This document shows, in pieces, positions 5,757-46,993 of a DNA stretch of 64,000 bases (the stretch's first letter is position 1; each line of letters starts with the position of its first letter). Where the stretch lies: positions 62,001 to 126,000 of the forward strand of contig NZ_SLVF01000013.1 in assembly GCF_004345365.1 (NCBI RefSeq), written 5' to 3'. The position numbers were made by a program, and so were the translations under genes. The notes under the pieces were generated by a model. It searched no databases. It saw only the letters and a list, made by a program, of their open reading frames with translations, and had not been told where the DNA came from. The DNA comes from Kribbella sp. VKM Ac-2568. Its GTDB lineage: Bacteria > Actinomycetota > Actinomycetes > Propionibacteriales > Kribbellaceae.

Positions 5757-5797
5757 TCTCGTAGCTTGGACAGCCGCGGATTCGATACCACTGCACA

Positions 5798-8700
5798 GTG
5801 ACCCCGCCCCGAGCTCGTGCCGTCCTCAGTTCTCTCCTCAGCGCCGCTGTCGTCTTTGTCTTGTCGGCTTCCCCTGCACAGGCGGTGCCGATGCCTGAGG
5901 ACACCAGCCCGGCGACAGCGCAGTACGGCTCGGAAAGCACTGTCACGCTGCTGACCGGCGACAAGGTGACGCTGGGTGCTCCGGACGCCAAGGGCGACCC
6001 TGCGGTCCGGATCGAGCCGCGGACGCCGGGCAGTGGCGCGTTCTCGGTACGCCGGGACGCGGGCCGGGTGAGCGTGATCCCGAAGGACGTCGAGCCGCTG
6101 GTCCCGTCGGTGCTGGACCCCGCGCTGTTCGACGTGACCGGTCTGGTCGAGATGGGGTACGACGACGCGCACCGGGCCGATCTCCCGGTCGTCGTGCGAC
6201 AGGACGCCCGGTCAGTGGATCCGGGCGCGGTCCGGATCGAGCGCGAGTTGCCCAGCCTCGGGGCGAGCGCGGGGGTGCTGCCGAAGGACCGCGCGGCCGC
6301 ACTCGGTGAACGACTTACCGGACGACAGGCGGTCACCGGTAGATTCTGGCTCGATCGGCGGCTGAGCGCGACCGCTTTATCCGGGTCCACCGAAGCGCCG
6401 CGGGACCCTTACCTCGATCAGGTGAAGGCGCCGGCCGCCTGGGAGCGCGGGCTGGACGGGCGCGGGGTGAAGGTCGCGGTGCTCGACACCGGCGTCGATT
6501 CCGGTCACCCGGCACTGGCGGGCAAGGTGGACGCCGAGGCCGACTTCACCGGGAACACGAGCCCGGCCGACGACAACGGTCACGGCACTCACGTGTCCTC
6601 GCTCATCGCCGGCAGCGGCGCCGGATCGGACGGCGCTCGCCGGGGTATCGCGCCGGAGGTCGACCTGATCTCGGGCAAGGTGCTGGCCGACGACGGTTTC
6701 GGTCAGGAGTCCTGGGTGATCGCCGGGATGGAGTGGGCCGCCGCGCAGGGAGCCGACGTGGTCAACCTCAGCCTCAGTTCGCCGCCCGCCGACGGCGACG
6801 ACCTCGTCTCCCAGGCGCTCGACAGGCTCTCCGCGACCACCGGCACGCTGTTCGTGGCCGCCGCCGGGAACCGCGGCAACCTCGGCGCGAACCCGTACAC
6901 GATCGGCAGCCCGGGCGTTGCGGCCTCGGCGCTCACGGTCGGCGCGGTCGATGCCGCGGGCAAGCAGGCGATCTTCTCCAGCGAGGGCCCGACCCGCGGC
7001 ACCTATCGGCTCAAGCCCGATCTGTCGGCGCCGGGGGTCAACCTCCTTGGTGCGCGAGCAGGAGCCCGCGACGGCAACCTCTATGTGGCGATGTCCGGCA
7101 CCTCCCAGGCGACTCCGCTGGTCGCCGGTGCAGCTGCGCTGATGCTGCAGCAGCACCCGGACCACACGTGGAAGCAGTTGAAGGCCGACCTGACCACGCA
7201 GGCCGACGCCACGAAGGTCTTCAACGGCTGGACCAACGGCGGCGGAGTGCTTGATCTCCAGCTGGCCACGGCTGGTGAGGTGTCGGTCGATCTCGCGTCG
7301 CTCGACTTCGCCTACCTGCGCTATCCGGACAAGGCCGCGCGCAGTCAGGTGCTGACCCTGACGAACTCCAGCACGGCACCGGTGACGCTCTCTCTGGTGG
7401 ATGCCGAGAAGAGCTCGACGAACGTCGAGGCACCCGCGAACGCAGTACTGGCCGAGCCTGCCACGCTGACCATCCCGGCCGGCGGTACGGCGTCGTCGAA
7501 GGTGACGGTGGATCCCGCGCTGCTGCCTGACGGAATGTGGCAGGGGAGTGTCGAGGCTCTCGGTGCGGATCAGCAGCGGCTGCTTCACCTGCCCTTCGGG
7601 GCGTACGACGAGCCGGAGCGGTACGACCTGTCCGTGCGAGTGCTCGACCGTTCCGGCGCTCCGTATGCGGGTGGCGTGGCGACGGTCTTCAACTACAACA
7701 CCGGTGGCTCGATCAACCTGGCGCTCGACGCCAAGGGCGAGGCCAGGACGCGCCTCGATCCCGGGCGGCTCAGCATCCTCGCTGCCGTGGAGACACCAGC
7801 CGACGGTGATCGACCGAAGACCTTCGCCCTGGCCGGCTCCTCGGAGATCCCGCTGACCAGCGACACGTCGTACGTGATCGACGCGCGGAAGGCCCAGGTA
7901 CTGCGTGCGCCTACCGTCGCCGAGCGGCAGACGACGCTGGCGGAGTCAGCGCTCGGTGTCTCCCGTCACAGCACCAGCCGTGGGCTCAGCGACTTCTGGT
8001 TCTTCACTCCGGACCAGATCGCCGGCGGCACGATCTTCGTCCAGCCGACCACCAAGGTGTCGCCCGCGGGCGCGTTCGAGGCATCCAATCGCTGGCGGCT
8101 GGAGCCGGTCGGAACGGTCCGCTCGGGAGACCCGAATGTCTACGAGTTGCTCTTCGTGAAGGACAGGTTCGAACTGCCGCTGTCCCCGCGGCTCGAGCGC
8201 CGGGATCTGCAGAGGATGGCCCGGGTCGAGAACACTTTCGGCAGCAGCTCCGGACCCGGCACGCAACGGGTGGAACGCGCTTGGTCGACCGCCGAGACCG
8301 GGATCGGCTGGGTGAACCGCCGGACGGTCCAGGTTCCCTCGAAGCAGGTCGAGCTCTTGACGGCCGACCCAGGCGCCGAGTGGAACCAGTGCCTGACGGT
8401 CACAGCGGCCAGTACGACGAACCTGTGTGACCGGGAGAATCTGCCGTTCCCTACGGGTGCCCGGGTGGAACGGACCTTCGGGGTCGCGTTGCATCCGACG
8501 GTGTTCGCGGCCTCGCACACTCCGACGTACCTGTTCGTCGACATCGGGGTGGCGGACGCGTTCCATCACGGGAAGCCCGTGGCGGCAGCCGTGAAGAACC
8601 GCCGGTTGGCGTTGTATCGCAACGGAGTACTGGTCAATGAGGTCACCGCGGGCTCGAGCTACTTCGGCATTCCCAACGGGAGCGGGACTTTCAAGCTCGA

Positions 8701-34529: not shown

Positions 34530-34993
34530 TCAGTCGGTTGCGTACTGCGGGCGCCCGGCGGGAGCGCTATGCCCTTCGGGAAGGCTCGCGATTCGATCAG
34601 GTCGAGCGCTTTGTCCGGTCCGTTGTCGGGGAACAGCCGGGTGCCCTGGCCGACGACCACGGGGCAGACGAGCAGGGTGATCTCGTCGACCAGCTGGTTG
34701 TCGAGGAGCCAGCAGACCAGGTGGGCGCTGCCGTGCACCTGCAGCTCGCCTCCCGGCTTGGCTTTCAGCTCGCCGATGGCCGCTGCCACGTCACCAGACA
34801 GGATGGTCGTGTCCGCCCATTGCGGATCGGTGAGCGTGTTCGATGCGACGTACTTGGGCCGCGTGTTCAAGGCACCCACGATGCGGTTCTCAAGATCTTC
34901 CCTCACACCCCAGTAGCCGGCGAAGAGCTCGTACGTCCGCCGGCCGAACAGGAACGCGTCGGCGCGCTGGTAGACCTCGTCGACGAACTGCCT
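34530..34993 (-). pseudogene. Dihydrofolate-reductase-like gene, truncated at 5' end and damaged at 3' end
   Basis: Reads leftward from about 34993 as QFVDEVYQRADAFLFGRRTY, then ASNTLTDPQWADTT, GELQVHGSAHLVCWLLDNQL and VDEITLLVCPVVVGQGTRLF: RibD-C/DHFR-family core. The N-terminal strand (normally 50 residues) is missing because sequence of a recombinase (34996-35062) is fused at that point. Near the 3' end the frame shifts by a small deletion: AFPKGIAL is followed, in another frame, by PAGRPQYATD and a stop at 34530. If read without the shift, the frame runs on to 34418. Not functional. Confidence 0.8.
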
Positions 34994-34995
34994 GT

Positions 34996-35062
34996 GAGGA
35001 GTTCGTGGAGCCAGGCGAGTCGCTGGTCCTGTGTGAGCGACTGGCTACTGCTGGTCAGCCGA
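34996..35062 (-). pseudogene. Recombinase fragment (copy D)
   Basis: Short stretch reading leftward as SQSLTQDQRLAWLHELLTG. The same peptide (with small changes) occurs in the recombinase remnants at 42400-43153 (SQDQRRAWIHELLTGSSE) and 39137-40045 (DHRLAWIHELVTGTSE). It abuts the broken end of the dihydrofolate-reductase-like gene, so an insertion or recombination of this element is the probable cause of that truncation. Confidence 0.7.
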
Positions 35063-35113: not shown

Positions 35114-36544
35114 CTACGCGACGTCGGGCCGTGTCATCAGCGGCGACTGCAGATGTAGCGCCAGACTGGGGCCGGTCAGGGGCACGGTGCTCCACGTCGC
35201 CGCCGCTGTCCCCGCGTCGGCGTCGACCACCAGCCGGACCCGGTGCGGGGTGGTGATGACGTAGAGCTCGGCGACGAACGTGTCGCCCTGCCAGGCGCCA
35301 GTCGCGACGACAGGGCGGCCGAGCGGCGAACTTTCTCGCCATTCGCCGTGGCCGACCTCGACGTTGAGGAACGACCCGAATCGCAGGAGCCAGCCACCGT
35401 CCACGGGATCGACGATCACCGTGGTTCCGTCTGGCAGAGCCGAATTCTCGGCGGAGGCGTCGAGCCTCGCCTTGACGGAACGCTCCGGGGCGGCCGAACC
35501 CGGCACCGGCGCGAATGACAGCCGCCGCAGCCGATCAGCGAGGATCTCGTCGTCCTGGGCGTTTCCCGCGTCATCCAGGCCGGGCAACAGGCAGTCCCAA
35601 AAGACACTGGGTAGTGCGTGCCCCTGATCGACGGCGGCGGTCACGACGACCACGAGATCGTGGGACGGGACGACCACGCATTGCTGGCCAAAGGCGCCGT
35701 TACCGTGGTAACCGTGACGCGACATCCAGAATTGGTAGCCGTACCCGCAAAGAAAGTCGGGGCTAGCCCAGTCGTCCTCGAGCTGCAGGGTATCGATATG
35801 CCGTCTGGTCGCGAGCGCCACCCATTCACGCGGGATGAGCTGGCGGTCGCCCCAGATGCCTCCGCGCAGCAGCAACTCGCCGAAGGCGGCGACGGCCTCC
35901 GTCGTGAGGTGCAGCCCGTGGAATCCGAAGGCGGCACCGCTCGCCACCCGGTCCCATTCGGCGTGGTCGACGCCCATCGGCCTGAACAGACGCTCGTCGA
36001 GCAGCTCCGGCAGGCCGCGGCCCGTGACCCGTTCCACCATCCGGGCCAGGATGAAAGTGGTCGCATTGTCGTAGGTGTGCCGGGTGCCCTCAGGTTCGGT
36101 GAACGGTACGCGCAGGAAGCCCTTCACCAGATCGTCCGGTTCCAGCTGCCAGGCCTCGGCGAGGCTGTCCGTGCTGTGCCCGGCCGTCATGGACAGCAGG
36201 TGGTGCACGGTGATGCGGTTTCCCTGCTCCGAGATGTCGGCCGGAACGTGGTCGGGCAACACGTCCACCACCCGGTCGTCCAGCGAGAGCAGCCCGTCGG
36301 CGATCGCGAGCCCCACGGCGATCGAGGTGAACGATTTGGTCAGCGAGTAGAGCAGATGCGGCCGTTCGGCCGAGTACGGCGCCCACCAGCCTTCGGCGAC
36401 GACGTGACCGCGGCGTACGACCATGAGGGAGTGACACTCGACGGATAGCGCTTCGAGCCGGTCCAGCAGCGCGGCAACCGCGCGGGACGACATCCCCGAG
36501 GCGGCCGGAGTCGACCGCGGCAGTAGGGGGCGCTGAGAAGACAT
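35114..36544 (-). CDS. Serine hydrolase, beta-lactamase/DD-peptidase family
   Basis: 476 residues. Serine motif SxxK: S67-L-T-K70 in LLYSLTKSFTSIAVGLAI; Y-x-N motif in HTYDNATTF; and third motif H-G-x-G in HGYHGNGAFGQQ. N-terminal domain to about residue 330 is the class C-like catalytic fold; the C-terminal 130 residues form a beta domain often found in such esterase-like relatives. No signal peptide from the ATG at 36544 (MSSQRPLLPR), so it is probably cytosolic, an esterase or peptidase rather than a penicillin-hydrolysing enzyme. An upstream frame to 36712 has no similarity. Confidence 0.88.
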   Translation of the reverse strand: MSSQRPLLPRSTPAASGMSSRAVAALLDRLEALSVECHSLMVVRRGHVVAEGWWAPYSAERPHLLYSLTKSFTSIAVGLAIADGLLSLDDRVVDVLPDHVPADISEQGNRITVHHLLSMTAGHSTDSLAEAWQLEPDDLVKGFLRVPFTEPEGTRHTYDNATTFILARMVERVTGRGLPELLDERLFRPMGVDHAEWDRVASGAAFGFHGLHLTTEAVAAFGELLLRGGIWGDRQLIPREWVALATRRHIDTLQLEDDWASPDFLCGYGYQFWMSRHGYHGNGAFGQQCVVVPSHDLVVVVTAAVDQGHALPSVFWDCLLPGLDDAGNAQDDEILADRLRRLSFAPVPGSAAPERSVKARLDASAENSALPDGTTVIVDPVDGGWLLRFGSFLNVEVGHGEWRESSPLGRPVVATGAWQGDTFVAELYVITTPHRVRLVVDADAGTAAATWSTVPLTGPSLALHLQSPLMTRPDVA

Positions 36545-36736
36545 GCAGGCAACGGAACAAGACTGCACAATCGAATTACGAGAGACATCGCTCAGGATCG
36601 GCTGAATGCTGCCGTCCGACAATAGGCCTCGACATTCCAGTGATCGAGTGTGGAGAACACCTGGTTGACGTGCGGAGATACCGCAGTTGGCGCGGGGCAA
36701 CACGGAGCACATGTGAGCTGTGCGAGGTGCGACCTG

Positions 36737-37060
36737 CTAGTCCGGCGGTCGCTGTAGGAGCTGTCGGGACGACTCGAAGCCCAGCCGTTCGTACACCGGC
36801 ACTGCCTTGCGACCAGAGTGGACCGTCACGCGAAGGGACCCGAGGTGTGTCGCATGCTCCGAAGTAGCAAGCACGAGCGGCGAGCCGAATCCCTGGCCTC
36901 GCTGCTTCGGCATGACGAAGACGCTCGGGTACCTGCTGGATGTCAGTGCGCGGCTCATGGGGGGCGGCGCGTCGGTCATGCAAAATCGCGTGCGTCGTTG
37001 CTCTCTGATGGGGTTGGATCCCTCATCGGGGGCGTGGCGATGTGCGGCTCGATCGACTTC
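36737..37060 (-). pseudogene. GNAT acetyltransferase remnant, N-terminus lost
   Basis: The C-terminal half is GNAT-like: VFVMPKQRGQGFGSPLVLAT (Q-R-G-Q-G-F-G acetyl-CoA loop), then HLGSLRVTVHSGRKAVPVYE and RLGFESSRQLLQ with the stop at 36737. Upstream, the family's first three strands are absent and replaced by Arg-rich codons, and the phase changes near the TDAPPPMSRAL segment. There is no ribosome site at a sensible start. It is an inactive remnant. Confidence 0.7.
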
Positions 37061-37140
37061 AGAAGTTCGCGGACTCCAGGGACGTCCGCCGCACCAGCCT
37101 GACCGCTTCACCCGCGACCGTGAGAGCAGAGTGACCGTAC

Positions 37141-37785
37141 ATGAAGAACTATCCGCTCCTCGATGTGCGCGTCAGCACGCCAACGCTCGAGCTGCGCAGC
37201 GCCACAGACGAGCTGCTGGATCAGCTCGCGGATGTCGTGCGCGCGGGCAAGACCCATGCCGATCCTCCACCGTACGACGACCCGATGTCGTTCTACGAGA
37301 CCGATCCTGACCTGCGGGTCGCCAAGTGGCTTCGGGCGATCTGGCGGCGCCGCGGCACGGTCGAGCCTGATGCTTGGCGGCTCTACTTCGTGGTCATGGT
37401 CGACGGCCGGCCTGTCGGGGAGCAGACAATGACGGGAGTGAACTTCTTCACTCTCGGAACGGTCACGACCTTCTCCTGGCTGTCTGTCGATCAGCGTGGC
37501 CATGGCCTCGGGCACGAGATGCGGGCAGCGATCCTGCACCTGGCGTTCGACGGCCTCGGGGCGAAGGAAGCAAGCAGCGACGCCTTCGTGGACAACCACG
37601 GCTCCAACGCGATCTCGCGAGGTCTCGGCTACGAGCCCAACGGGTCCGAATGGGCAACGAGGCAAGGCAAACCCGCCCTGCTCAACCGGTGGCGACTCAC
37701 CCGAGACGACTGGGAACAGCGCCGCAGGGACGACATCCAGCTCCACAACATCGAGGCCTGTCACGCCCTCCTGCCCCTGTCCTGA
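37141..37785 (+). CDS. GNAT family N-acetyltransferase
   Basis: 214 residues, an acetyltransferase of the larger two-subregion type. WRLYFVVMVDGRPVGEQTMT is the central beta strand region; the acetyl-CoA motif is WLSVDQRGHGLGHEMRAAIL (Q-R-G-H-G-L-G), then EASSDAFVDNHGSNAISRGL. ATG at 37141; the upstream area contains the broken GNAT gene. Similar proteins occur next to aminoglycoside or peptide genes, but no partner is here. Probable cargo of the plasticity zone. Confidence 0.85.
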   Translation: MKNYPLLDVRVSTPTLELRSATDELLDQLADVVRAGKTHADPPPYDDPMSFYETDPDLRVAKWLRAIWRRRGTVEPDAWRLYFVVMVDGRPVGEQTMTGVNFFTLGTVTTFSWLSVDQRGHGLGHEMRAAILHLAFDGLGAKEASSDAFVDNHGSNAISRGLGYEPNGSEWATRQGKPALLNRWRLTRDDWEQRRRDDIQLHNIEACHALLPLS

Positions 37786-37832
37786 CGTCATCAGACGGTG
37801 GGGGGGTGTCCTTCACCGCGAGTGACCACAAT

Positions 37833-38111
37833 TCGGCTACTTGTCGACACGGCATCGTTCGCGGTGGAAGTCGTAGGGGATCACAGCGCACGTCGAACAG
37901 ATCAGGTGGCCATCGGCGTTGGGCGAGCCCGGGTCAGCGGCGGGTCGCTGTCGGCGCCATGCGCCGCGTGCCGGCCGCTGCCGAGTGTCCCCGACCGGCA
38001 GGTGGATGCTGCCTCGAAGTCGCGTTTGCGCAGGTCAGGTGCCACATTCTCGAGACGTGCGCGGCGGGGACCATGGCCTGCGCGGTGTGATTCATCTGTT
38101 GCAATACGCAG
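37833..38111 (-). pseudogene. Recombinase N-terminal fragment (copy A)
   Basis: Reading leftward from 38111, the text LRIATDES leads, after about 150 bases of unmatched sequence, into a stretch nearly identical to copy B at 39959-40024 (NADGHLICSTCAVIPYDFHR). The frame stops at about 37840. It corresponds to the Zn-ribbon start of the recombinase. The rest of the gene is missing; the low-GC HAD gene lies 119 bases to the right. Confidence 0.6.
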
Positions 38112-38229
38112 CCGTACTGGACAGCCTGCGTTCAAGTTCACTCGTATAGCGTTGGACCATGCACTAGATTCGCGCGCTCAGGTTCGCATGCTGCCTCGCT
38201 GCCCTCTCTCCTAGGAAAGGATCAAGAGA

Positions 38230-38871
38230 GTGAAAAGGTACATACTCTTCGATCATGATGGTGTTCTGGTGGATACCGAATTCTGGTATTACAAAGCTGG
38301 AGAACGTGCCCTGGCGGACATTGGTTTGACTTTGGACGAGGATCAATACCTCCGGGACATGAACCAGGGATTGGGCACTTGGGCCCAAGCCAGGGCGGCA
38401 GGTATGGATGAACAGACCATCAGCAGGCAGCGTGAGGTTCGTAATGATTATTATCAGGAATATCTTAGGACAGAAGCCATCGAGATCGAAGGCGTCGTTG
38501 ACGCTCTTGCTGAACTGTCAAAATACGTCCGCATGGCCATAGTGACGACTGCAAAACGTGTGGATTTTGACATTATCCATGAAAAGCGCCAAATCAGACA
38601 ATTCATGGATTTCGTCCTCGTTCGCGAGGACTACAAGCTCACCAAGCCGCACCCGGAACCATACCTGACCGGGTTAGAGCGACTCGGAGCCACCAAAGAA
38701 GAGACACTGGTTGTAGAGGATTCATCCAGAGGGCTGAACTCAGCCGTGGCGGCCGGTATTGACTGTGTCATTGTCTACAACGACTTTACAAGGGCACATG
38801 ACTTTTCACAGGCTAGCTATCGAATCGAAACTCTGATTGAATTGAAGGATATCATCCTTAATGCAACCTGA
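38230..38871 (+). CDS. HAD superfamily phosphatase, low-GC and probably transferred
   Basis: 213 residues, beta-phosphoglucomutase-like HAD hydrolase. Motif I: D8-H-D10-G-V in FDHDGVLVDTEF; motif II T in MAIVTTAKRVDF; motif III K in DYKLTKPHPEPY; motif IV VVEDSSRGLNSAV. Cap helices follow motif I. By counting three 60-base lines, its GC is 43-50%, against about 70% around it, and codons such as AAA, ATA, TTT are common. GTG at 38230 with AGGAAAGG upstream. The next gene starts within 20 bases but is cut after about 17 codons. A transferred gene with unknown sugar-phosphate or antibiotic-precursor substrate is likely. Confidence 0.88.
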   Translation: MKRYILFDHDGVLVDTEFWYYKAGERALADIGLTLDEDQYLRDMNQGLGTWAQARAAGMDEQTISRQREVRNDYYQEYLRTEAIEIEGVVDALAELSKYVRMAIVTTAKRVDFDIIHEKRQIRQFMDFVLVREDYKLTKPHPEPYLTGLERLGATKEETLVVEDSSRGLNSAVAAGIDCVIVYNDFTRAHDFSQASYRIETLIELKDIILNAT

Positions 38872-38887
38872 AGGAGAATTTACCAGT

Positions 38888-38938
38888 GTGCCCCATGCTC
38901 CTTTGAAAGAGCGAAAAGAGCGAAACTATCTCGCGCGC
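38888..38938 (+). pseudogene. Cut-off start of a second low-GC gene
   Basis: AAGGAG at 38871-38876, then GTG at 38888 and VPHAPLKERKERNYLAR. GC remains low to about 38936 (TTTGAAAGAGCGAAAAGAGCG), and then jumps to typical high-GC sequence (GCGCGCGCCGCACTGGGCGC). The piece looks like the translation-initiation region of the next gene of the HAD operon, severed at the element boundary. The family cannot be recognised from 17 codons. Confidence 0.5.
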
Positions 38939-39136
38939 GCCGCACTGGGCGCCGGCGGACGAGTGAGGACTCAGGTTGAAGGCACGCATGCCGGGTTCGC
39001 GCCCGGCCGAGCCCTTCGGCAGCCAGGGGTCGCGCTCAACCGAACATAGCGACGATCGGTGCAAATGCCGCCAGGAGCGAACCCCGGTGTTGGAGTCAAC
39101 CGCAGGGCGTCCAGATGTGTGTCCGCGAGCGATGGA

Positions 39137-40045
39137 TCACGGGTCCGCGATCCTCCGGCCCGCGTACCGAGCCCACGGTTCAGCGCCCTTGTCGCCATGG
39201 AGAAACGCGACCTTGGCGCTGTAGCCGAGGCCCTCGGCGACGAGGTGCTCGCGCACGAGAGAAGCGAACGGTTCGGGAACGTCTGTGGGGTGCCGGCCGA
39301 GGCTAATGCTCATGCCGGAATCACCGTCGTCGAAGACATTGGTCGAAAAGGTGACAAGCTTGACCAACGGCTGGGCGTGGAGCAGCAGGAGCATCCCGGC
39401 TACGCAGTAGGGGAGTGACTCGCTGGTGCCGGTGACGAGTTCGTGGATCCAGGCGAGACGGTGGTCCTGGGCTGAGCGACGGGCCGGCTGAGTGGACCGG
39501 ACCACGCGTGCGCGCGTCTGCTGCTGCCTTGGCGCGGATTCGCCGGAGGTGGTGCCAGGTGGCGAAGTGCTGAACGGGCTGCCGCACTTCTCGGGGAGTC
39601 CGTCGAGCTTCGCGTTGCTCGAATCGGGGCAGATACGGGACACGCTGGGGGAGAAGGCCGTGATGCTGCAACAGAGCCCGCAGATGCTCGGTCGGCTTGC
39701 CGGGAACGCCGTCGAGTCCCTCGTGTGAGACGGGGACCCTTCGTTCGCCGAGTCCGCGAAGGAGGTCCTGAACCTCGGGGGAGCGCGCTTCCAGACGAAG
39801 ATCGACTCGGGCCGGTCCGACGCGCAGAGCGCGTCGATCAGTCCGACCAGCGAAGGGTCGCTCGGTTCACCCCCGAACAGCCCCTGGAGGTCGTCGCACA
39901 GGGCGCAGCGGGCGCACATTCGTCCGAGATGGTGTCCGGCTTCCACGTCGCAGCGTTCACAGTGGAAGTCGTAGGGGATCGCAGCGCACGTCGAGCAGAT
40001 CGGCTGCCCATCGGCGTTGGACGCTTCATCTGATGCAATACGCAG
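39137..40045 (-). pseudogene. Broken tyrosine-recombinase-like gene (copy B)
   Basis: The best preserved N-terminal and C-terminal parts. Leftward from 40045: LRIASDEASNADGQPICSTC, then YDFHCERCDVEAGHHLG, RMCARCALCDDLQGLFGGEP, giving a cysteine-rich zinc ribbon. After FVWKR the frame shifts several times; pieces HHGLLPQRV and YLPRFEQ, AWIHELVTGTSESLPYCVAG, MLLLLHAQPLVKLV, and a final PEPWARY... GRRIADP are recovered in alternating frames. Compared with copy C, the segment with HFATWHHLRRIRAKA is shared. At least three indels; no intact frame exists. Related to actinomycete recombinases that work in pairs; the family is inferred from these motifs. Confidence 0.75.
40025..40045. repeat. Shared 21-base edge of three recombinase remnants
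   Basis: CATCTGATGCAATACGCAG lies at the start of copy B here; almost the same words stand at 38091-38111 (copy A) and 43133-43153 (copy C). Outside these 21 bases the three flanks are unrelated, so this is the common left limit of homology. It encodes the peptide LRIASDE on the minus strand. Confidence 0.75.
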
Positions 40046-40141
40046 ACTAGTGGAGCCCCTGCGTGTCGAGATCGGTCGTATTGGCTGAGCCGATCCGGGG
40101 CTGAACGGGCATCAGAGTGCGTTCGCGCCTAATGTGCCGCC

Positions 40142-40546
40142 ATGGTCGCAAAGATTTCGATCGCAGTCGCCGCACTCGTGCGCGACGGTCTCGTGCTTCT
40201 GGTGCATCGCCATCCATCGCGCCGGTGGTACCCCGACTGCTGGGACCTGGTCGGCGGACATGTCGAGTCGGGCGAATCGCTTCACCAGGCCGTCAGTCGG
40301 GAGTGCCTCGAGGAACTCGGTGTCCACGTCCACGACCCTTTGCCCATTCCGATGACGATCAATGACCCCACCCTCGACATGCACGCGTTCCTCGTCACGC
40401 GCTGGGAGGGGGAACCTGTCAACGCCGCCCCCGAGGAGCATGACGATCTTCACTGGTTTCGGCCCAGCGATCTCGCAGACTTGAAGATGGCCCACCCGGC
40501 CAGCCTGTCGAGCATCCTGAGCGCCGTCCAGGTCGCAACTGACTAG
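40142..40546 (+). CDS. Nudix hydrolase
   Basis: 134-residue NDP-X pyrophosphohydrolase domain, with Mg2+-dependent hydrolysis of nucleoside-diphosphate derivatives. The Nudix box is complete: GGHVESGESLHQAVSRECLE then ELGV (G-x5-E-x7-R-E-x2-E-E-L-G). The opening KISIAVAALVRDGLVLLVHR and the short C-terminal DLHWFRPSDLADLKM are as expected. ATG at 40142. A free-standing gene in the plasticity zone, with no neighbour indicating the substrate. Confidence 0.9.
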   Translation: MVAKISIAVAALVRDGLVLLVHRHPSRRWYPDCWDLVGGHVESGESLHQAVSRECLEELGVHVHDPLPIPMTINDPTLDMHAFLVTRWEGEPVNAAPEEHDDLHWFRPSDLADLKMAHPASLSSILSAVQVATD

Positions 40547-40681
40547 CCGCTACGAACCGACTGCTCCGGCATGGGCGCGCGGTCTGCACACGGTGGCGAG
40601 AGAGGGCGCGAAGGCGACCCACGGACTACTACTGGACGTAACTGAGGGTTGTCGTCACAAACCCACGGCGGTTGGGCAGGT

Positions 40682-41263
40682 TCAGGCCGGTCGGATCGTG
40701 CGGCGCATGACGGTGTTCTTCATCCCCTTGGAGCGGACGAACTCGAAGCCGGCTTGCTCGTACATCGTGCGTGTTCCGTTGTAGACGAACGAGTTACTCA
40801 TCCTCTTCTCACCGATCTCGTGCGGGTAACCCTCGACCACACCGCCACCCTGCCCCGCAATCAGATCGAGCGCACCGGCCAGAGCCACCTTGGCGTAGCC
40901 CTGTCCGCGGTGACGCTTGTCGACGAAGATGCATGTGATGCGGTACTCGGGCACCACGTCGGCCTCGGCGAGGTACTGCTTGCGGTGATGGATGGTCGGC
41001 AGCTCATCCGGGGTGCCGTACTCCGCCCACGCGATCGCCTCATCGCCAACCATCACCAGCGCCGCATGAGCCTGTCCGGCCTCGACCAGCCGCTTCTTCA
41101 GCGCGCGGTTGCCCTCGTAACCCTGCCCCCGCTCGGCACAGTCGGGGTGGAAGTAGATACACCAGCACCCACCGAAGATCCCGTTGTGCCGCTCCACCAG
41201 GCCGGCGAACGCGTTCCACGTGTGAGCAGTCAATGGCTGAATCGAGTATCCGTTTGTCACCAT
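40682..41263 (-). CDS. GNAT family N-acetyltransferase
   Basis: 193 residues from the ATG at 41263 (MVTNGYSIQPL). It has the WNAFAGLVERHNGIFGGCWC start and IYFHPDCAERGQGYEGNRAL characteristic of an actinobacterial GNAT group, and the acetyl-CoA loop ITCIFVDKRHRGQGYAKVAL, then GGGVVEGYPHEIGEKRMSNS. No function known for the group. An upstream ATG at 41281 is in frame but gives only six more residues. Intact, transcribed toward the Nudix gene. Confidence 0.88.
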   Translation of the reverse strand: MVTNGYSIQPLTAHTWNAFAGLVERHNGIFGGCWCIYFHPDCAERGQGYEGNRALKKRLVEAGQAHAALVMVGDEAIAWAEYGTPDELPTIHHRKQYLAEADVVPEYRITCIFVDKRHRGQGYAKVALAGALDLIAGQGGGVVEGYPHEIGEKRMSNSFVYNGTRTMYEQAGFEFVRSKGMKNTVMRRTIRPA

Positions 41264-41380
41264 GCCGCCGATCGTAAGCACGCGTCACACGGACGATCTA
41301 CGTCCGCATCGTCGGAGGTCGGCCAGATCGCTGCCAAAATCGGCGGCAGGCCGGACTCGATCAATCGGAGCAACGCGAGC

Positions 41381-41500
41381 TCATGCCCCACTCACGATCA
41401 CCAATTCGTTGCCTTCGGGGTCGGCCCGCCAGCGATCCTCCGACTCATCAAGCAGCCGGCCACACAGCGAGCTCGAAGTGGATGCGATTGCGCTGCCGGC
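41381..41500 (-). pseudogene. VOC family gene remnant with internal deletion
   Basis: Leftward, about 41490-41460 reads RQRNRIHFELAV, a VOC first-half motif, then stops occur, and 41425-41381 reads ADPEGNELVIVSGA and a stop, the VOC C-terminal strand. The normal interval is about 30-60 residues; here it is about 15 with a frame break. It resembles the intact two-domain VOC gene at 31926-32651 (RLHFDL, DPDGNEFCVL). It lies head-on to the intact PCD-VOC gene and may derive from a related gene. Confidence 0.6.
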
Positions 41501-41547
41501 GATTCTCTGACAGCGCTGCGGCTGAATCAGAGATACGCTCCCCGTTT

Positions 41548-42255
41548 ATGGACATGCTGAAGGGCGCACAGATCGCCGCGGCCAACCTGACCGACTGGCG
41601 CAAGCTGGCCCAGGGACTGCATGCCCGCTACCTGGTGGACGACTTCGGCACCGGCGCACGATTCGTCGCCGCGGTGGGCGAGGCGGGCGACGCTCTCGGA
41701 CACCACCCGCGCGTGTCGATCGGCAATGGGTACGTCGACCTCAAGCTGGTCACCGACGACGCCATCTACCGCGACGACGAGGGCACCGAACACGTCGTCG
41801 AATGGGTGACCCAGCAGGACGTCGACCTCGCGCGACGGATCACCGAGATCGCCGCCGACCACCAGTTCGACGCCGACCCGGCCTCGGTCAGCGACATCGA
41901 GCTCGGCCTCGACACGGCGCACTCTGCGACCATCGCCCCGGTGTGGGCCGTCCTGCTGACCGGGAGCGCTGAGGCCCAGGGCCGCGGAACCCCCAGCGAC
42001 GAAATCCGAGACGCCACGGCACGGGTACCGAATCTGTGGTTCGGGGACGCCGACGAGCACGAGACCCCGCGTCAGCGGTTCCACATCGAGGTCTATGTGG
42101 CGCCCGAGGTGGCCGCGCAACGGATCGCCGCCGCCGTCGCCGCGGGTGGGACCGTCGTCGATGACAGCAACGCGCCCTCGCTCACCGTGATCGCCGACCA
42201 GGACGGCAACAAGGGAATCGTATGCGTCGACGTGTCCGCTGCGAACAAGGATTGA
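41548..42255 (+). CDS. Fusion of pterin-carbinolamine-dehydratase-like and VOC domains
   Basis: 235 residues. The first 105 residues resemble 4a-hydroxytetrahydrobiopterin dehydratase (NLTDWRKLAQGLHARYLVDD, GDALGHHPRVSIGNGYVDLK with the G-H-H-P core of the active site), and the second half is a VOC domain (VWAVLLTGSAEAQG..., NLWFGDADEHETPRQRFHIE, ending VIADQDGNKGIVCVDVS). The ATG at 41548 (MDMLKGAQIAA) is used; upstream frame to 41383 overlaps the broken VOC gene. Such fusions are known in actinobacteria but uncharacterised. The pair of domains suggests pterin or other carbinolamine chemistry. Confidence 0.82.
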   Translation: MDMLKGAQIAAANLTDWRKLAQGLHARYLVDDFGTGARFVAAVGEAGDALGHHPRVSIGNGYVDLKLVTDDAIYRDDEGTEHVVEWVTQQDVDLARRITEIAADHQFDADPASVSDIELGLDTAHSATIAPVWAVLLTGSAEAQGRGTPSDEIRDATARVPNLWFGDADEHETPRQRFHIEVYVAPEVAAQRIAAAVAAGGTVVDDSNAPSLTVIADQDGNKGIVCVDVSAANKD

Positions 42256-42399
42256 ACCGCCAACTCGGCCCGCCTTATCAGCGCAAATGACCGTCACTTG
42301 TCCGATCCGTGAAAGTGGACAGACCCGTCTCATCCAGTGATTCCATGATGCATCTGATGAGACTCAGTCCGTGTTTCTGCAGGTCAGGGGCATGTCTGC

Positions 42400-43153
42400 G
42401 GTAGGGGAGTGACTCGCTGGAGCCGGTGAGGAGCTCGTGGATCCAGGCGCGCCGCTGGTCCTGACTGAGCGACGGGCTTGTCTTCGCTAATCGATGCTGG
42501 ACGGTCACCGCGGTGTTGAGGCGCGCCTTCTTTGCAACGACGAAGAACGTCCTGATCGCACTGCGCGTCGTCGGTCCGGTGGCAAGCCACTCGTCGACGT
42601 CCTGCTGGGTACACGTCGCGGCGGTGCGCTGATAGGTCTCGTGCAGCCACACGAGGAACTTCACCGTTTCGGTGATCTCCTGTTTCGCCGAGTGGACCGG
42701 GTCACGAGTGGCCGCACCAGACGCCGCCTTGGCACGGATGCGCCGCAGGTGGTGCCAGGTCGCGAAGTGCTGCACGGGTTGCCGCACGTCCTCAGGGAGT
42801 CCGTCGAGCTTTGCGTCGATCCACTGCTCGAACCGGGGCAGGTAGAGGTCACGATGGGGGAGCAGACGGTGGTGCTGAAGGAGCGCGACGGCCGTTGGCG
42901 AGCCAGTCCTCGAGGATGCCGGGCGTCCACCGCCAAACCGTGAGCACGCTGCGCGGCTTGTGCGGCGAGCCACATCGCGCCTTGCCGTAGCGGACCTTGC
43001 AGACGCCGAACACACCGAACTCGCGGGCGTGAGGATTGCGGGCGAAGTCAACGGTCTGGAGGTGGCGCAGCTCGTTGACTCGCAGCCCGTAGGCATGCTG
43101 CCGGGGCAGTGGAGCGGGCTCTGCCTGGTTGATTCATCTGATGCAGTACGCAG
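42400..43153 (-). pseudogene. Mosaic broken recombinase (copy C)
   Basis: Leftward from 43153: LRTASDES, then in another frame AYGLRVNELRHLQTVDFARN, HAREFGVFGVCKVRYGKARC, SPHKPRSVLTVWRWTPGILE: a tyrosine-recombinase catalytic region with the first Arg in GLRVNEL. After about 43000-42890 the frame changes to a long stretch ALLQHHRLLPHRDLYLPRFE, QWIDAKLDGLPEDVRQPVQH, FATWHHLRRIRAKA ... RAWIHELLTGSSESLPYR, shared with copy B. Thus the copy contains parts of two adjacent recombinases joined by a frameshift. No complete active site remains. Confidence 0.75.
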
Positions 43154-43221
43154 ACTGCTAGTTGACATAATGTCGCTTATCGGCCATTTATGCAGGAGGT
43201 GACGAGAGGGGTTGGGAGGCG

Positions 43222-43560
43222 TCAGTCCAGCGGCGGGAACGTCCTGGCGATCGGTACGGTTGCCAGCCAGGACCGGAGTTCCGGGCTGAGTTGTCCGTGC
43301 ACCTGCAGGAGCGTCATCTTGGCGAACTCGCCGACGCGGCTGAGCAGTTCCTCGCAGTGAGCGTTGTGAGCGAACGCCGCCGCCGAATCCACGTATTCCT
43401 CGATGACGACGAATCGCACCGGATCGGCCTCGACGTACCAGTCGTATCTGAGCGTCCCCGGCTCGTCGTTCGCCGCGGCCGCCAGCGCCTTCGCCAGCGT
43501 GACGAACCCGTCCCGCGCGCCAGGAAGCGTTGTGAGCTCGGCCCGCACAAAGATCGTCAT
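43222..43560 (-). CDS. Antibiotic biosynthesis monooxygenase (ABM)-domain protein
   Basis: 112 residues, dimeric ferredoxin-like ABM fold. MTIFVRAELTTLPGARDGFV is the family's first strand, with YDWYVEADPVRFVVIEEYVD (the conserved E-x-W/E-E-Y region) and FAKMTLLQVHGQL. Members act as cofactor-free oxygenases or heme-degrading or quinol proteins; assignment to a pathway is not possible here. ATG at 43560; frame upstream to 43857 overlaps the integrase start and has no similarity. Convergent with nothing nearby, single gene. Confidence 0.85.
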   Translation of the reverse strand: MTIFVRAELTTLPGARDGFVTLAKALAAAANDEPGTLRYDWYVEADPVRFVVIEEYVDSAAAFAHNAHCEELLSRVGEFAKMTLLQVHGQLSPELRSWLATVPIARTFPPLD

Positions 43561-43660
43561 GGAAACCTCTCGATCCGCCGCTGTGGATGCTGCTCCTGGA
43601 ACGTATCCCCCAGAGGGTCCGGTGCAGACTTCGCCACCGAGAGCGGCCGGCAGACCGTCA

Positions 43661-43680
43661 TGCATAATCACCATTATGCA
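43661..43680. promoter_or_regulatory. Perfect palindrome TGCATAAT-CACC-ATTATGCA
   Basis: Eight-base perfect arms with a four-base centre, between the ABM and integrase starts. Related AT-rich words with CATAAT/TTATGCA recur at 43160-43192 and 43717-43726. Such sites commonly flank actinobacterial tyrosine recombinase genes, so this could be a crossover or regulatory site of the integrase. Confidence 0.5.
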
Positions 43681-43786
43681 GCAGTTCTGACTCTTCGACC
43701 GATCCAATAGTTGCCTTATGCAAATAAAGCGACCGGGGGAGTCAGACCACCGGAGAACTGTCGGTGGCGGCCGGTAGAAGTTCCCC

Positions 43787-44752
43787 ATGAAGGTTCTCGC
43801 AGCACAGTCGGCGTTCTTCGCTGCCCGGCGTCCCCGCAAGGACTCCCCCCACACCACCGACGCCTACCGCCGCGACCTGGCCGGCATCACCGCACTGCTG
43901 TCCGACGACGACCCGGAGACCCTCGATGTCGAAGACCTGACCGCACCCGTACTGCGAGCCGCGTTCGGCGCCTTCGCCGACAACCACGCGAAGAGTTCCG
44001 TACTTCGGGCCTGGTCGACGTGGAACCAGTTCCTCACCTTCTGTGTGTCCGACGGACTGCTCGCGGGGAATCCGATGGGAGCGGTCGCCCGGCCCAAGAC
44101 CCCTCCCCTCTCCCCCAAGCCTCTCCGTGGCGAGGACACACCGGAGAAGCTCCTGCGCTCAGCGGCCGACGGCACGAGGCAGTCACGAGACCCTTGGCCC
44201 GAGCGCGATGTCCTGGTGATCGCGCTCGGCCTGGTCGCCGGACTCCGCTCGGCCGAGATGCGCACGCTGACGGCCGATTCGCTGGCCGGCCGCCCTGGCG
44301 AGATGCGCCTCCACATCCACGGCAAAGGAAGCCGCGACCGCTCGATCCCCGTCGAGCCGATCATGGAGAAGATCATCGAGACGTACGTCGAATCCTGTGC
44401 GCGACGCTTTCCCAGCAAACGGTTCGGCCGGTCCACCAAGCTGCTACTGGACCGAACCGGTGAACCGATCGGCCGAGGCGGCCTCGAGTATCTGGTGAAG
44501 TCGTGCTACCGCTGGGCCGGGTTGCACGACCGCGTCCCAGTCGGTGCGAACCTGCACGCGCTCCGCCACACCTTCGCCACCAGGCTCGCCGAGGACGGCG
44601 CCACCGCCTCGGAGATCATGCGACTGCTCGGCCACGCGAGCCTCGCCACCAGTCAGAATTACATCGAAGCCACCGGCCGGGAGCAACGAGCCGCCGCCGC
44701 GAGCAACCGCACCTACCTTTCCCTCACCGAGGTGATCACCCCGGACGCGTAG
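43787..44752 (+). CDS. Tyrosine recombinase/integrase, XerC/D-like
   Basis: Intact site-specific recombinase of 321 residues. N-terminal SAM-like core-binding domain (RRPRKDSPHTTDAYRRDLAG to FADNHAKSSVLRAWSTWNQF), then catalytic domain with R154 in VAGLRSAEM, H257-x-x-R260 in HALRHTFAT, H283 in LLGHASLATS, and nucleophile Y292 in SQNYIEAT. All five residues are in place. ATG at 43787 with no strong ribosome site. The palindromes upstream and a UMP kinase 111 bases downstream suggest it is an element integrase with cargo, unlike the broken family around it. Confidence 0.93.
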   Translation: MKVLAAQSAFFAARRPRKDSPHTTDAYRRDLAGITALLSDDDPETLDVEDLTAPVLRAAFGAFADNHAKSSVLRAWSTWNQFLTFCVSDGLLAGNPMGAVARPKTPPLSPKPLRGEDTPEKLLRSAADGTRQSRDPWPERDVLVIALGLVAGLRSAEMRTLTADSLAGRPGEMRLHIHGKGSRDRSIPVEPIMEKIIETYVESCARRFPSKRFGRSTKLLLDRTGEPIGRGGLEYLVKSCYRWAGLHDRVPVGANLHALRHTFATRLAEDGATASEIMRLLGHASLATSQNYIEATGREQRAAAASNRTYLSLTEVITPDA

Positions 44753-44863
44753 CAACGCAGTACACGGCGGACGACTGATACGCAGTGCACGCCGGTTGCT
44801 TAATGGGGAGCCGTCGCACGTGGTTGCGGACAGAATGTGGCGAGTCCAACGACAGGAGAAGCG

Positions 44864-45571
44864 ATGTACCGCAGGCTGGTGCTCAAGTTGTCAGGCCAAT
44901 CCATCGCCGGATCAGCCCAGTTCGGCTTCAACAGCGACAGCCTCACGCATCTCGCCCGGGAGGTGATCGCCGCGCGCGACACCGGCGTACAGGTGGCCGT
45001 GGTGGTCGGCGGCGGGAACGTGTTCCGCGGCAACCAGTCCGAGGACTGGGGAATCGACCGGGTCGAGGCGGACAACATCGGCATGCTCGGCACGGTGATC
45101 AACGCCGTCTTGCTACGCGGTCGGTTGGCGGCGATGGGTGAGGAGGATGTGCGGCTGATGACCGCCATCCCGATCAACAATCTGGCCGAGCCGTACATCC
45201 GCCTGCGAGCACTCCGGCATCTGGAGAAGGGGTCGATCGTCCTGCTCGGGTGCGGGAACGGGCAGCCGTTCACGACGACCGACTACCCCGCAGTTCAGCG
45301 TGCGATCGAGCTCGGCGCCGATGCGTTGCTCGTCGCGAAGAACGGGGCTGACGGGGTCTACGACGCGGACCCGAACAAGGTCGCCGGCGCACAACGCTTC
45401 GACCGTCTCACCTATCAGCAGGTCATCGACAAGGGCCTTGGTGTGATGGACCAGAGCGCGTTCATCCTCGCCCGCGACCACCGGCTCCCGCTGCACGTCT
45501 TCGACATCGACCGTCAGGGCGCCGCGGCCGCGATCAGCTCCGGCGAGCACATCGGCACGGTCATCAGCTGA
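44864..45571 (+). CDS. pyrH: UMP kinase paralogue (PyrH-like), probable second copy
   Basis: 235 residues of the amino-acid-kinase fold, phosphorylating UMP to UDP. Start MYRRLVLKLSGQSIAGSAQF, nucleotide loop VAVVVGGGNVFRG, VEADNIGMLGTVINA and NGADGVYDADPNKV follow the PyrH order. It differs from housekeeping PyrH: KLSGQS (usual KLSGE), LLGCGNGQPFTTTDYPAVQ (usual GGTGNPFFTTDTAA). Housekeeping pyrH stands between tsf and frr, none of which is here. GACAGGAG lies seven bases before the ATG. Downstream of the integrase, hence likely cargo. Confidence 0.88.
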   Translation: MYRRLVLKLSGQSIAGSAQFGFNSDSLTHLAREVIAARDTGVQVAVVVGGGNVFRGNQSEDWGIDRVEADNIGMLGTVINAVLLRGRLAAMGEEDVRLMTAIPINNLAEPYIRLRALRHLEKGSIVLLGCGNGQPFTTTDYPAVQRAIELGADALLVAKNGADGVYDADPNKVAGAQRFDRLTYQQVIDKGLGVMDQSAFILARDHRLPLHVFDIDRQGAAAAISSGEHIGTVIS

Positions 45572-45935
45572 GCCCCACGAGCGGCAGGTCCGCGTTGATC
45601 GCATCCAGGTGCGGCGCGAACCAGTCGCCGTCGGCCTCGTGCTCCCAGTGCAGGGCCATCACCGACCAGACGACCCGGTAGAAGGTAAGCGTCCACTCGA
45701 GCTCGGGAGGCCGCTCGAGGCCGTAGCCGTTGAGCAAGGCATCGGTCGAGGCCGATCCCGCCCGCGAGAACCGCCCGAGATCGAACAGCGGATCACCGAA
45801 AGCCGCGTCGCCCCAGTCGATGATCCAGTCAGTTCTTCACCAGACGCGTCGATGTGTCGCGGGTGATGCCGATGAAGCCCTGGACTGGGTTCGACCGAGG
45901 CGATCGGGCCGACGGTCCGTGCTCCGACTGTGGCG
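45564..45935 (-). pseudogene. Aminoglycoside-phosphotransferase-family remnant
   Basis: Leftward from about 45935: TVGPIASVEPSPGLHRHHPR, HIDASGEELTG (degenerate Brenner motif), then after a frameshift near 45815 WIIDWGDAAFGDPLFDLGRF, SRAGSASTDALLNGYGLERP and DADGDWF... ending LPLVGLS at 45564, which overlaps the stop of the UMP kinase by eight bases. D-W-G (usually DFG/DWG) survives but the HGD site does not, and the N-terminal half is missing. Inactive. Confidence 0.75.
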
Positions 45936-45947
45936 ACGAGGCGGGGA

Positions 45948-46993
45948 TCAATCACCGACCGAAGGTAATACGTCAGCGGCGAATCGCTTGAGTTGGTCGC
46001 CGAGTCGCGCCGGCGGAAACAACCAAAGCCCGAGCGAGTCAGCACCCGCGTCGAGCAGACGCTGGAGACGCTCGCTCACCGTCGCGGGGTCACCCGCCAC
46101 GGCGAACTCATCAACCCACTCGTCCTCAACCACAAGTTCCTCACCCGGACCAACCCCCGCAATCCGCTCCCTCACCTCAACCCCGTACTTCGACTGCCCC
46201 ACCAACGCCCACTCCGACTCAGCCCGAAGAAAGAACCCCACAGCCCCCCGAACCGCCTCCCGAGCCACCGCCCCGTCCTCATCCACAGCCGCCAACACAT
46301 ACGCCGCAACCGGCGGGACGAAGTCGCCCGCTCCCCCGCCACCCTCTGCCCCGGCCGCTCCCACCACGCCCTGCCCCCTCGCGCCTGCTCGGGCGGCGGC
46401 TCCGCTGGCGACCTGTTCGGTTGCCCAGCTGACATAGGCGGCCCTGCCAGGACTGAGAGGAGGACGCCGTCGGCCAACCTGCCTGCGGTTTGGAGGGCTT
46501 GTTGGTTGACGGCGCCTATCCAGAGTTCGGGTGGCCGGGTTGGTGGGTAGTCGAGCTTGAGGTTGTTGTACTCGTGGGTGACCGTCCGGCGGTCGACCTG
46601 GCCGCCGGCGAGGAGTGAGCGCAGTATCTCGAAGGTCTGGGTGACGGCGGTGAGTGGACGTGCGGGGAGCAGGCCCATCTGGTGGTTGTTGCCCAGGCCA
46701 ACGGCTGTGCGGACTCTGCCCGGGTGCATCCGCGCCAGACCGGCCAGTTCCATCGCGAGCACCGCGGGATGCCTCGTGACCACGCTCGCCAGACCGAGGC
46801 CGGCAGTCGCCGTGGATGTCGACGCCAGCAACTGCGTCAGGCCCGACACTCCCCCGGAGAAGAAACAGTCCTCGGAGAACCACAAGTCGCCGAACCCGAG
46901 CTCCTCCGCCAGCGCCGCCCCACGAGCCAACTCCTCCGGCGGCGTCAGACTCCCGAACACGACACCGATCCGGCGACCCGCCAGACGATCCAT
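45948..46993 (-). pseudogene. LLM flavin-dependent oxidoreductase with a frameshift
   Basis: Leftward from ATG 46993 (GGAGAGGGACTG before it): MDRLAGRRIGVVFGSLTPPE, LGFGDLWFSEDCFFSGGV, VGLGNNHQMGLLPARPLTAV, ELWIGAVNQQALQTAGRLAD, GVLLSVLAG, an intact luciferase-like half. Near 46441-46450 the frame changes and the rest continues in another frame as AYVSWATEQVASGAAARAGA through EEWVDEFAVAGDPATVSERL, to the stop at 45948. One base inserted or lost would restore a protein of about 348 residues, so either a real lesion or a sequencing error. Divergent from the tetracycline gene, promoter carries two matching palindromes. Confidence 0.85.

Follow-up and report, generated by a model that had tools for sequence, protein, structure and literature searches.

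How did a low-GC gene for a HAD phosphatase come to lie between recombinase remnants in Kribbella sp. VKM Ac-2568, and where did it come from? Our preferred answer, to which we give a probability of roughly three in four, is that the gene is cargo of a decayed integrative element, encoding an integrase, an HTH protein, and a zinc-finger "XerD," that became integrated next to dif on the chromosome of a Kribbella-like actinomycete. A preliminary description of the 64-kb stretch of DNA analyzed here (the window) had regarded the gene as a transferred low-GC island among recombinase remnants, followed by a severed second gene. The island, its transfer, and its setting withstood analysis; the severed gene did not.

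A low-GC island encoding a predicted phosphatase

The HAD gene is an intact 213-codon ORF with a GTG start (Table 1). Its GC content is 0.492, against a mean of 0.678 for the 64 kb, with 0.584, 0.350, and 0.542 at codon positions 1, 2, and 3; the five genes around it have GC contents of 0.635 to 0.679 overall and 0.785 to 0.839 at third positions. When GC was computed in 600-bp windows across the 64 kb, as the preliminary description had proposed, the eight lowest values all came from windows overlapping the gene, and values below 0.55 were confined to starts within 37.4 to 39.3 kb. The island is therefore the strongest low-GC stretch of the 64 kb.

The product matches Pfam HAD_2 (6.2e-31, above the cut-off). 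In an alignment of 81 copies, 97 of the 213 columns are invariant or show a single exception; these include the HAD-IA catalytic set D8, D10, T106, T107, K139, E163, and D164. The HAD fold and the catalytic D-x-D, T, K, and E-D residues place the protein in HAD-IA. A search with a structure model built from 26 sequences (mean pLDDT, 81.3; pTM, 0.76) returned CbbY, beta-phosphoglucomutase, YniC, an inorganic pyrophosphatase, and human HDHD1A, with query TM-scores of 0.60 to 0.77. The window protein shares both fold and catalytic residues with the HAD-IA phosphatases CbbY, beta-phosphoglucomutase, YniC, and HDHD1A, but it belongs to a tight family of its own, in which the best 80 loci of 123 relatives are 80 to 95% identical. 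No equivalog cut-off was reached among the 25 of 35 families listed, the best subfamily being TIGR02009 (92.8 versus 153.35 bits). From its family, fold, and catalytic residues, we take it to be an active small-metabolite phosphatase. In some loci (L027, L042, L053, L061, L079, L082, L038; L022, L064, L065), HAD is preceded by a gene that we take to be purC-like or by the terminal part of a histidine phosphatase gene, neighbors that possibly hint at its pathway.

The sequence behind the gene is a shared 3' tail

The preliminary description had read the letters after the HAD stop as the start of a second operon gene, cut off at about position 38936. These letters are present: GGAG, then GTG and an open stretch of about 17 codons. 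Under a strict pattern, the same tail is kept in 16 of 81 HAD copies. The frame from its GTG meets a stop within 20 codons in 9 of these (at codon 10 in Ktedonobacter racemifer L010 and codon 9 in L014) and is open for more than 20 codons in 7, including the window; insertions and deletions distinguish the tail from copy to copy. An all-against-all comparison of HAD loci found no common downstream gene among the families listed. A conserved reading frame is thus missing in the shared tail, and we rejected a second operon gene after HAD; a severed operon we now consider extremely improbable. By eye, the tails of L010, L014, L015, and the window could fold into a hairpin, both arms of which differ between the Ktedonobacter and Paenibacillus copies. 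Rfam gave no match to a structured RNA in the HAD loci of eight relatives or in window positions 36500 to 46000.

Origin and spread of the HAD gene

Among 168 candidate stretches from a scan of genome contigs, 123 encode relatives, of which the best 80 were kept. The nearest copies found are two in the distantly related soil bacterium K. racemifer (Chloroflexota; gene GC, 0.47), which are 95% identical to the window copy in amino acids and 96 to 97% in nucleotides, with a dS of 0.09 to 0.10. The corresponding dS is 0.37 to the copy of Kribbella antiqua and 0.48 to 0.54 to three Paenibacillus copies and one further Paenibacillus type. In 21 pairs, each including the window copy, dN/dS was 0.06 to 0.25. 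Within the window's genus, 4 of 38 genomes have the gene, as do 9 of 293 in its order (own genome counted), 28 of 104 in the family of a Paenibacillus ginsengarvi genome, and 5 of 47 in the class of Ktedonobacter (center genome counted in both); some copies in these surveys are shortened or carry stops. Its range is thus that of one small gene occurring sporadically in Paenibacillaceae, Ktedonobacteria, and Actinomycetota. Because the K. racemifer copies are nearer than that of K. antiqua and only 4 of 38 genus genomes have the gene, the sequences indicate that it was acquired horizontally, as first proposed; its closest relatives are not high-GC actinomycete orthologues in the same genomic context. 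A protein tree (81 rows) united Bacillota but not the other phyla, with 52 of 77 inner branches open and a bootstrap that had not settled.

No copy was found on phages, and the single plasmid record, from Nonomuraea gerenzanensis, is an 11.9-Mb record filed as a plasmid. What Paenibacillus loci share is mostly the ORF, with median flanks of up to about 35 bp on its 5' side and 15 bp on its 3' side; in some pairs the shared flanks reach up to 1513 bp before and 2468 bp after. These flanks have no constant end, and a fixed mobile cassette in Paenibacillus was rejected. Searched against the 104 family genomes, the flanks of one Paenibacillus copy gave, among the matches listed, HAD copies, one piece comprising the HAD end plus tail (G363), and a short repeat. 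A short, partly palindromic repeat upstream of one Paenibacillus HAD gene (L054, about 5762 to 5894) is dispersed in many of the 104 genomes.

A motif beside dif and three stacked units

Comparison of the genus genomes carrying HAD yielded two half-site motifs, LH and RH. LH, TTCATCTGATGCAATACGCAG, was found 18 times with at most 3 mismatches, in 12 of the 38 genus genomes, and a reversed control gave 0; viral contigs contained no exact LH. To its right lies AGTTGACATAATGTCCATTATCGGCGC or a variant, the reverse-complement type of the Frankia alni dif, given in PMC3025954 as CACGCCGATAATGCACATTATGTCAAGT. Fourteen stretches (12 at LH places, one with the K. antiqua HAD gene, and one with a G035 remnant) were fetched and compared together with the window. 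Exactly one dif-like match (at most 8/28 mismatches) was found in 12 of the 15, whereas 20 shuffles averaged 0.05; the others were a G008 contig (the site is on another G008 contig), G035, and G030. LH starts 27 bp before the site in 8 of 12 cases and 22 to 23 bp before it in 2, and it is degraded in 2 (G025 and G002). In the complete genome G029, sampled in 17 stretches, GC skew is positive up to 6797 kb and negative from 6817 kb, the one exception, immediately to the right of dif (6847 kb), being a value close to zero (0.0016). The window's own contig has only a broad maximum, at 124 kb, with dif at 105 kb. GC skew supports dif clearly only in G029.

Left of dif, sequence comparison resolves three stacked remnants of an actinobacterial integrase-HTH-"XerD" element, each with one to three cargo genes (Table 1). 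The setting between recombinase remnants that had been described for HAD is thereby extended to a unit with definable ends. Aligned with an intact Paenarthrobacter element (L193), the window pieces match at 61 to 86% of nucleotides: 43102-43184 corresponds to LH plus dif, 42852-43092 to the integrase, 42398-42886 and 39124-40014 to XerD, 37844-37973 to the XerD start, and 37927-38123, at only 61%, to the integrase leader. Within the units we found neither an intact recombinase gene nor an HTH match; only integrase and XerD pieces are kept. In other genomes, methyltransferases are the cargo of such units.

Table 1. Features left of and at the dif-like site (window positions; L193, intact Paenarthrobacter element)
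Feature	Position	Strand	Basis
Unit 1 cargo, GNAT gene	37141..37785	+	98% aa to G008 unit with its own RH
Unit 1, XerD gene start and integrase leader	37844..38090	-	72% and 61% nt to L193
LH ending unit 1	38091..38111	+	1 mismatch
RH of unit 2, degenerate	38112..38147	+	G008 HAD unit opens with the same sequence
Unit 2 cargo, HAD gene	38230..38871	+	Pfam, composition, fold
3' tail of HAD (claimed "second gene")	38872..38933	+	Tail shared by Ktedonobacter and partly by Paenibacillus copies; frame unconserved
Unit 2, XerD gene pieces	39124..40014	-	74-80% nt to L193
LH ending unit 2	40025..40045	+	0 mismatches
RH-like opening of unit 3, weak	40046..40085	+	6/21 mismatches
Unit 3 cargo, NUDIX gene	40142..40546	+	Pfam
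Unit 3 cargo, GNAT gene	40682..41281	-	Pfam
Unit 3 cargo, pterin-4a/glyoxalase-type gene	41383..42255	+	Pfam
Unit 3, XerD piece 42398-42886 (86% nt to L193) and integrase piece 42888-43097 (89% aa, 70 residues)	42398..43097	-	
LH ending unit 3	43133..43153	+	1 mismatch
dif-like site	43160..43187	+	7/28 mismatches to Frankia alni dif, reverse complement

Other recombinase sequences were seen in and around these rows. A XerC-like recombinase gene lies right of dif in the window (43787-44752, +; 321 aa), with counterparts in G007, G031, and G010 that are 87 to 90% identical in amino acids; its product does not reach the NCBIfam cut-off for canonical XerC and, at 24% identity, was rejected as the element's integrase. 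Further left, a 61-bp XerD piece (34989-35049; 82% nt to L193) may be left over from an older unit or from a rearrangement. G035 has a XerD-like frame joined to a TraG/TraD C-terminal piece (L190 9109-10737, -; Pfam TraG-D_C, 2.8e-14), which seems to be a remnant lying apart from dif. In G030, a diverged integrase-HTH-XerD row (L192 9768-12911; about 32 to 46% aa) lies beyond a diverged LH/dif-like sequence.

RH and the opposite unit end

The second motif, RH, consists of ACTACTGGACA, CG or GC, and CTGCGTATCAAG, and precedes the cargo. For the HAD unit, identity between G000 and G008 is 0.45 to the left of RH and 0.92 (100 bp) or 0.96 (300 bp) to its right, against a background of 40 random pairs with a mean of 0.48 and a maximum of 0.58. 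A methyltransferase unit (A) in four genomes gave 0.36 to 0.56 on the left and 0.91 to 0.97 on the right (300 bp). For a second such unit (B), the right sides agree at 0.98 to 0.99 among three genomes; on the left, two of the three agree at 0.95 and differ from the third (0.46 to 0.47), and in G025 both sides are at background. Since the sequences differ before RH and agree after it, RH evidently marks a unit end. At up to 4 mismatches, RH was absent from the window, where both places named in Table 1 carry 6 to 7 mismatches in 21 positions; that of unit 2 was assigned because it aligns with G008, and none was found for unit 1.

K. antiqua has the order HAD, RH, methyltransferase A, LH (4 mismatches), dif. 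The HAD copy of G008 diverges after about residue 150, close to the contig end. Taken together, two genomes, those of the window and K. antiqua, have HAD in a dif-side row, and G008 has it in a unit bounded by RH.

Could HAD instead have entered an already decayed array by illegitimate or homologous recombination, so that its position between RH and LH is due to chance? It evidently moves in other ways too: 78 of 80 other HAD loci lack such units in a scan for LH, RH, and dif, and shared flanks elsewhere are short, with no constant end. Yet G000 and G008 have the joint RH-115 bp-HAD in common while the sequence left of RH differs, and the order RH-cargo recurs with other cargo. We therefore regard a chance entry as quite improbable, and favor carriage of HAD by the element. 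All three motifs accompany HAD only in K. antiqua among the 80, and the dif-side unit route accordingly does not explain the spread of the gene in general.

Among the other HAD loci, an actinobacterial-type dif lies near the gene in L011 and L074 and a Bacillus subtilis-type match lies 3.5 kb away in L062; none of Escherichia coli type was found. L035, L052, and L086 contain LH-like sequences with 4 mismatches; no dif adjoins these, and they were taken as chance. In Psychromicrobium silvestre (L074 6001-6720), HAD ends about 57 bp before an actinobacterial dif (3/28 mismatches) with neither LH nor RH, perhaps an independent arrival beside dif.

Intact relatives on plasmids

The window remnants match a protein annotated "recombinase XerD" in 228 plasmid records and 0 phage records. 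We read 12 plasmid loci; in 10, the whole row of integrase (about 368 aa), HTH protein (about 110 aa), and XerD (446 to 520 aa) is annotated, and varied genes come after it. Upstream of where the integrase lies, 9 of 11 integrated loci have LH (at most 5 mismatches), and so does a circle (see below); a dif-like sequence (at most 8 mismatches) follows LH in 5 of the 11, and 4 carry RH (at most 4 mismatches). Alignment of six loci shows that the integrase retains what we take to be the usual tyrosine recombinase residues, and XerD keeps the terminal RY, has no HxxR box, and bears N-terminal cysteine pairs. Against Pfam and NCBIfam, XerD gave no recombinase match except Phage_integrase at 0.0012, below the cut-off, in a diverged relative.

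In Paenarthrobacter ureafaciens AT, the element makes up the whole of plasmid pD, a 4712-bp circle, and plasmid pA carries two tandem copies, the first identical to pD over 4712 bases and the second over the 3490 bases in the compared stretch; their joint differs by 2 bp from that of the pD circle, and the outer LH adjoins a dif-like site. Circular intermediates and tandem insertion would leave this pattern. The circle is possibly an assembly product, which would not by itself explain the altered joint.

Which recombinases made the insertions is the second point at which readings diverge. The host XerC and XerD could have inserted the units at dif, with the element's recombinases incidental, much as IMEX are inserted into dif by host XerC/XerD. 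The units do lie at dif, and the RH core resembles the XerD-side arm of that site. Modules with a single accessory gene at dif are, moreover, known from Acinetobacter, as described in PMC6449649 and PMC12907356. However, dif remains whole in the window, with the joint outside it, and LH accompanies the integrase-HTH-XerD row on plasmids, where the integrase retains its catalytic residues. By their place at dif the window units could be of the IMEX kind, although here the site is intact and the relatives encode recombinases of their own. We consider insertion by the host enzymes unlikely, though less so than a chance entry of HAD, and prefer insertion by the element's own enzymes.

A proposed route to the side of dif

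In the reading that we favor, the element would leave its donor as a circle in which LH is joined to RH, and its recombinases would integrate this circle a few bases beyond the XerD-side arm of dif, leaving the site whole. A later element would use the same position and come to lie between dif and its predecessor, so that a stack would result with the oldest element furthest from dif; the recombinase genes would then decay while the cargo remains. By position, the age order in the window would be unit 1, unit 2, and unit 3, oldest first. The sequences themselves show the foreign origin of HAD, the unit ends, the LH beside dif, the homology of the remnants to intact plasmid elements, and the circle and tandem copies deposited for plasmids; the action of these recombinases in Kribbella, the age order, and the way in which HAD came into the element are inferred.

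Several observations weigh against this reading. The RH of unit 2 is degenerate, that of unit 3 weak, and that of unit 1 missing, and no intact recombinase gene was found in the window units; two of the 12 dif-like sites have a degraded LH, and dif follows LH in fewer than half of the integrated plasmid loci. Methyltransferase unit B is at background in G025, and two genomes share its left side. K. antiqua is also the only one of 80 HAD loci with LH, RH, and dif.

If the reading holds, an odd low-GC gene becomes a readable event, in which a gene near a Chloroflexota copy was stored in an actinomycete with the dimer-resolution region as the address. Elements so far described by gene content gain end motifs, a target, and a testable circle, and the locus suggests that actinomycetes keep a store of small accessory genes next to dif. 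More tentatively, and with rather less than even confidence, we suggest that dif in Kribbella and the dif-like sites on actinobacterial plasmids serve as the fixed address at which a cassette-accretion system, integron-like in effect, operates: elements with two recombinases would repeatedly insert a few bases outside an unharmed dif, laying down single accessory genes in order of age, and recombinase-free mini-units (RH-gene-LH, as in G029) would be moved in trans. By its enzymes it would not be an integron, as the integrase_gron model gives 29.9 bits for the window XerC-like protein and 63.9 bits for the triad integrase, against a cut-off of 265.

Comparison with known systems

Elements of this gene content are known as XER modules, which PMC6305408 places on Antarctic Arthrobacter plasmids, inserted between umuC and umuD. 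The likeness, which includes pA2H2, pA8H1, and pA40H2, is one of gene content alone. The three-gene core is intact on plasmids and incomplete in the window units; variable passengers beside the core are present (HAD, NUDIX, two GNAT, and pterin/glyoxalase genes). The window units would thus be remnants of elements of the XER-module type and not working members, and they differ in being stacked at a chromosomal dif with defined ends. The term "dif site" has 0 occurrences in the text of PMC6305408. In the literature searched, most subscription papers being outside its reach, we found no account of integrase-HTH-XerD triads at the chromosomal dif of actinomycetes, and their stacking there was likewise not found in print.

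The dif (pdif) modules or islands of Acinetobacter, as presented in PMC6449649 and PMC12907356, are likewise rows of single accessory genes bounded by dif-linked recombination sites. They are moved by host XerC/XerD between whole dif-like sites; here the relatives have their own recombinases and LH/RH ends, and in place of two whole sites flanking the cargo there is one intact dif per stretch, at the edge of the row. Tn554-related actinobacterial transposons also have two different tyrosine-type recombinases in a row, often with a third small gene, but their long recombinase has 611 to 828 aa against 446 to 520 aa in our loci, and the excerpted text of PMC3414803 does not mention a link to dif. 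Closest in its choice of position is the IS1202 family, which, according to PMC10132070, is like the window units fixed a few bases outside dif or pdif and leaves the site whole. That family, however, is a single 1.5-kb IS lying 5 bp from the XerC arm, whereas the units described here lie on the XerD side, have tyrosine-type recombinases, and carry cargo.
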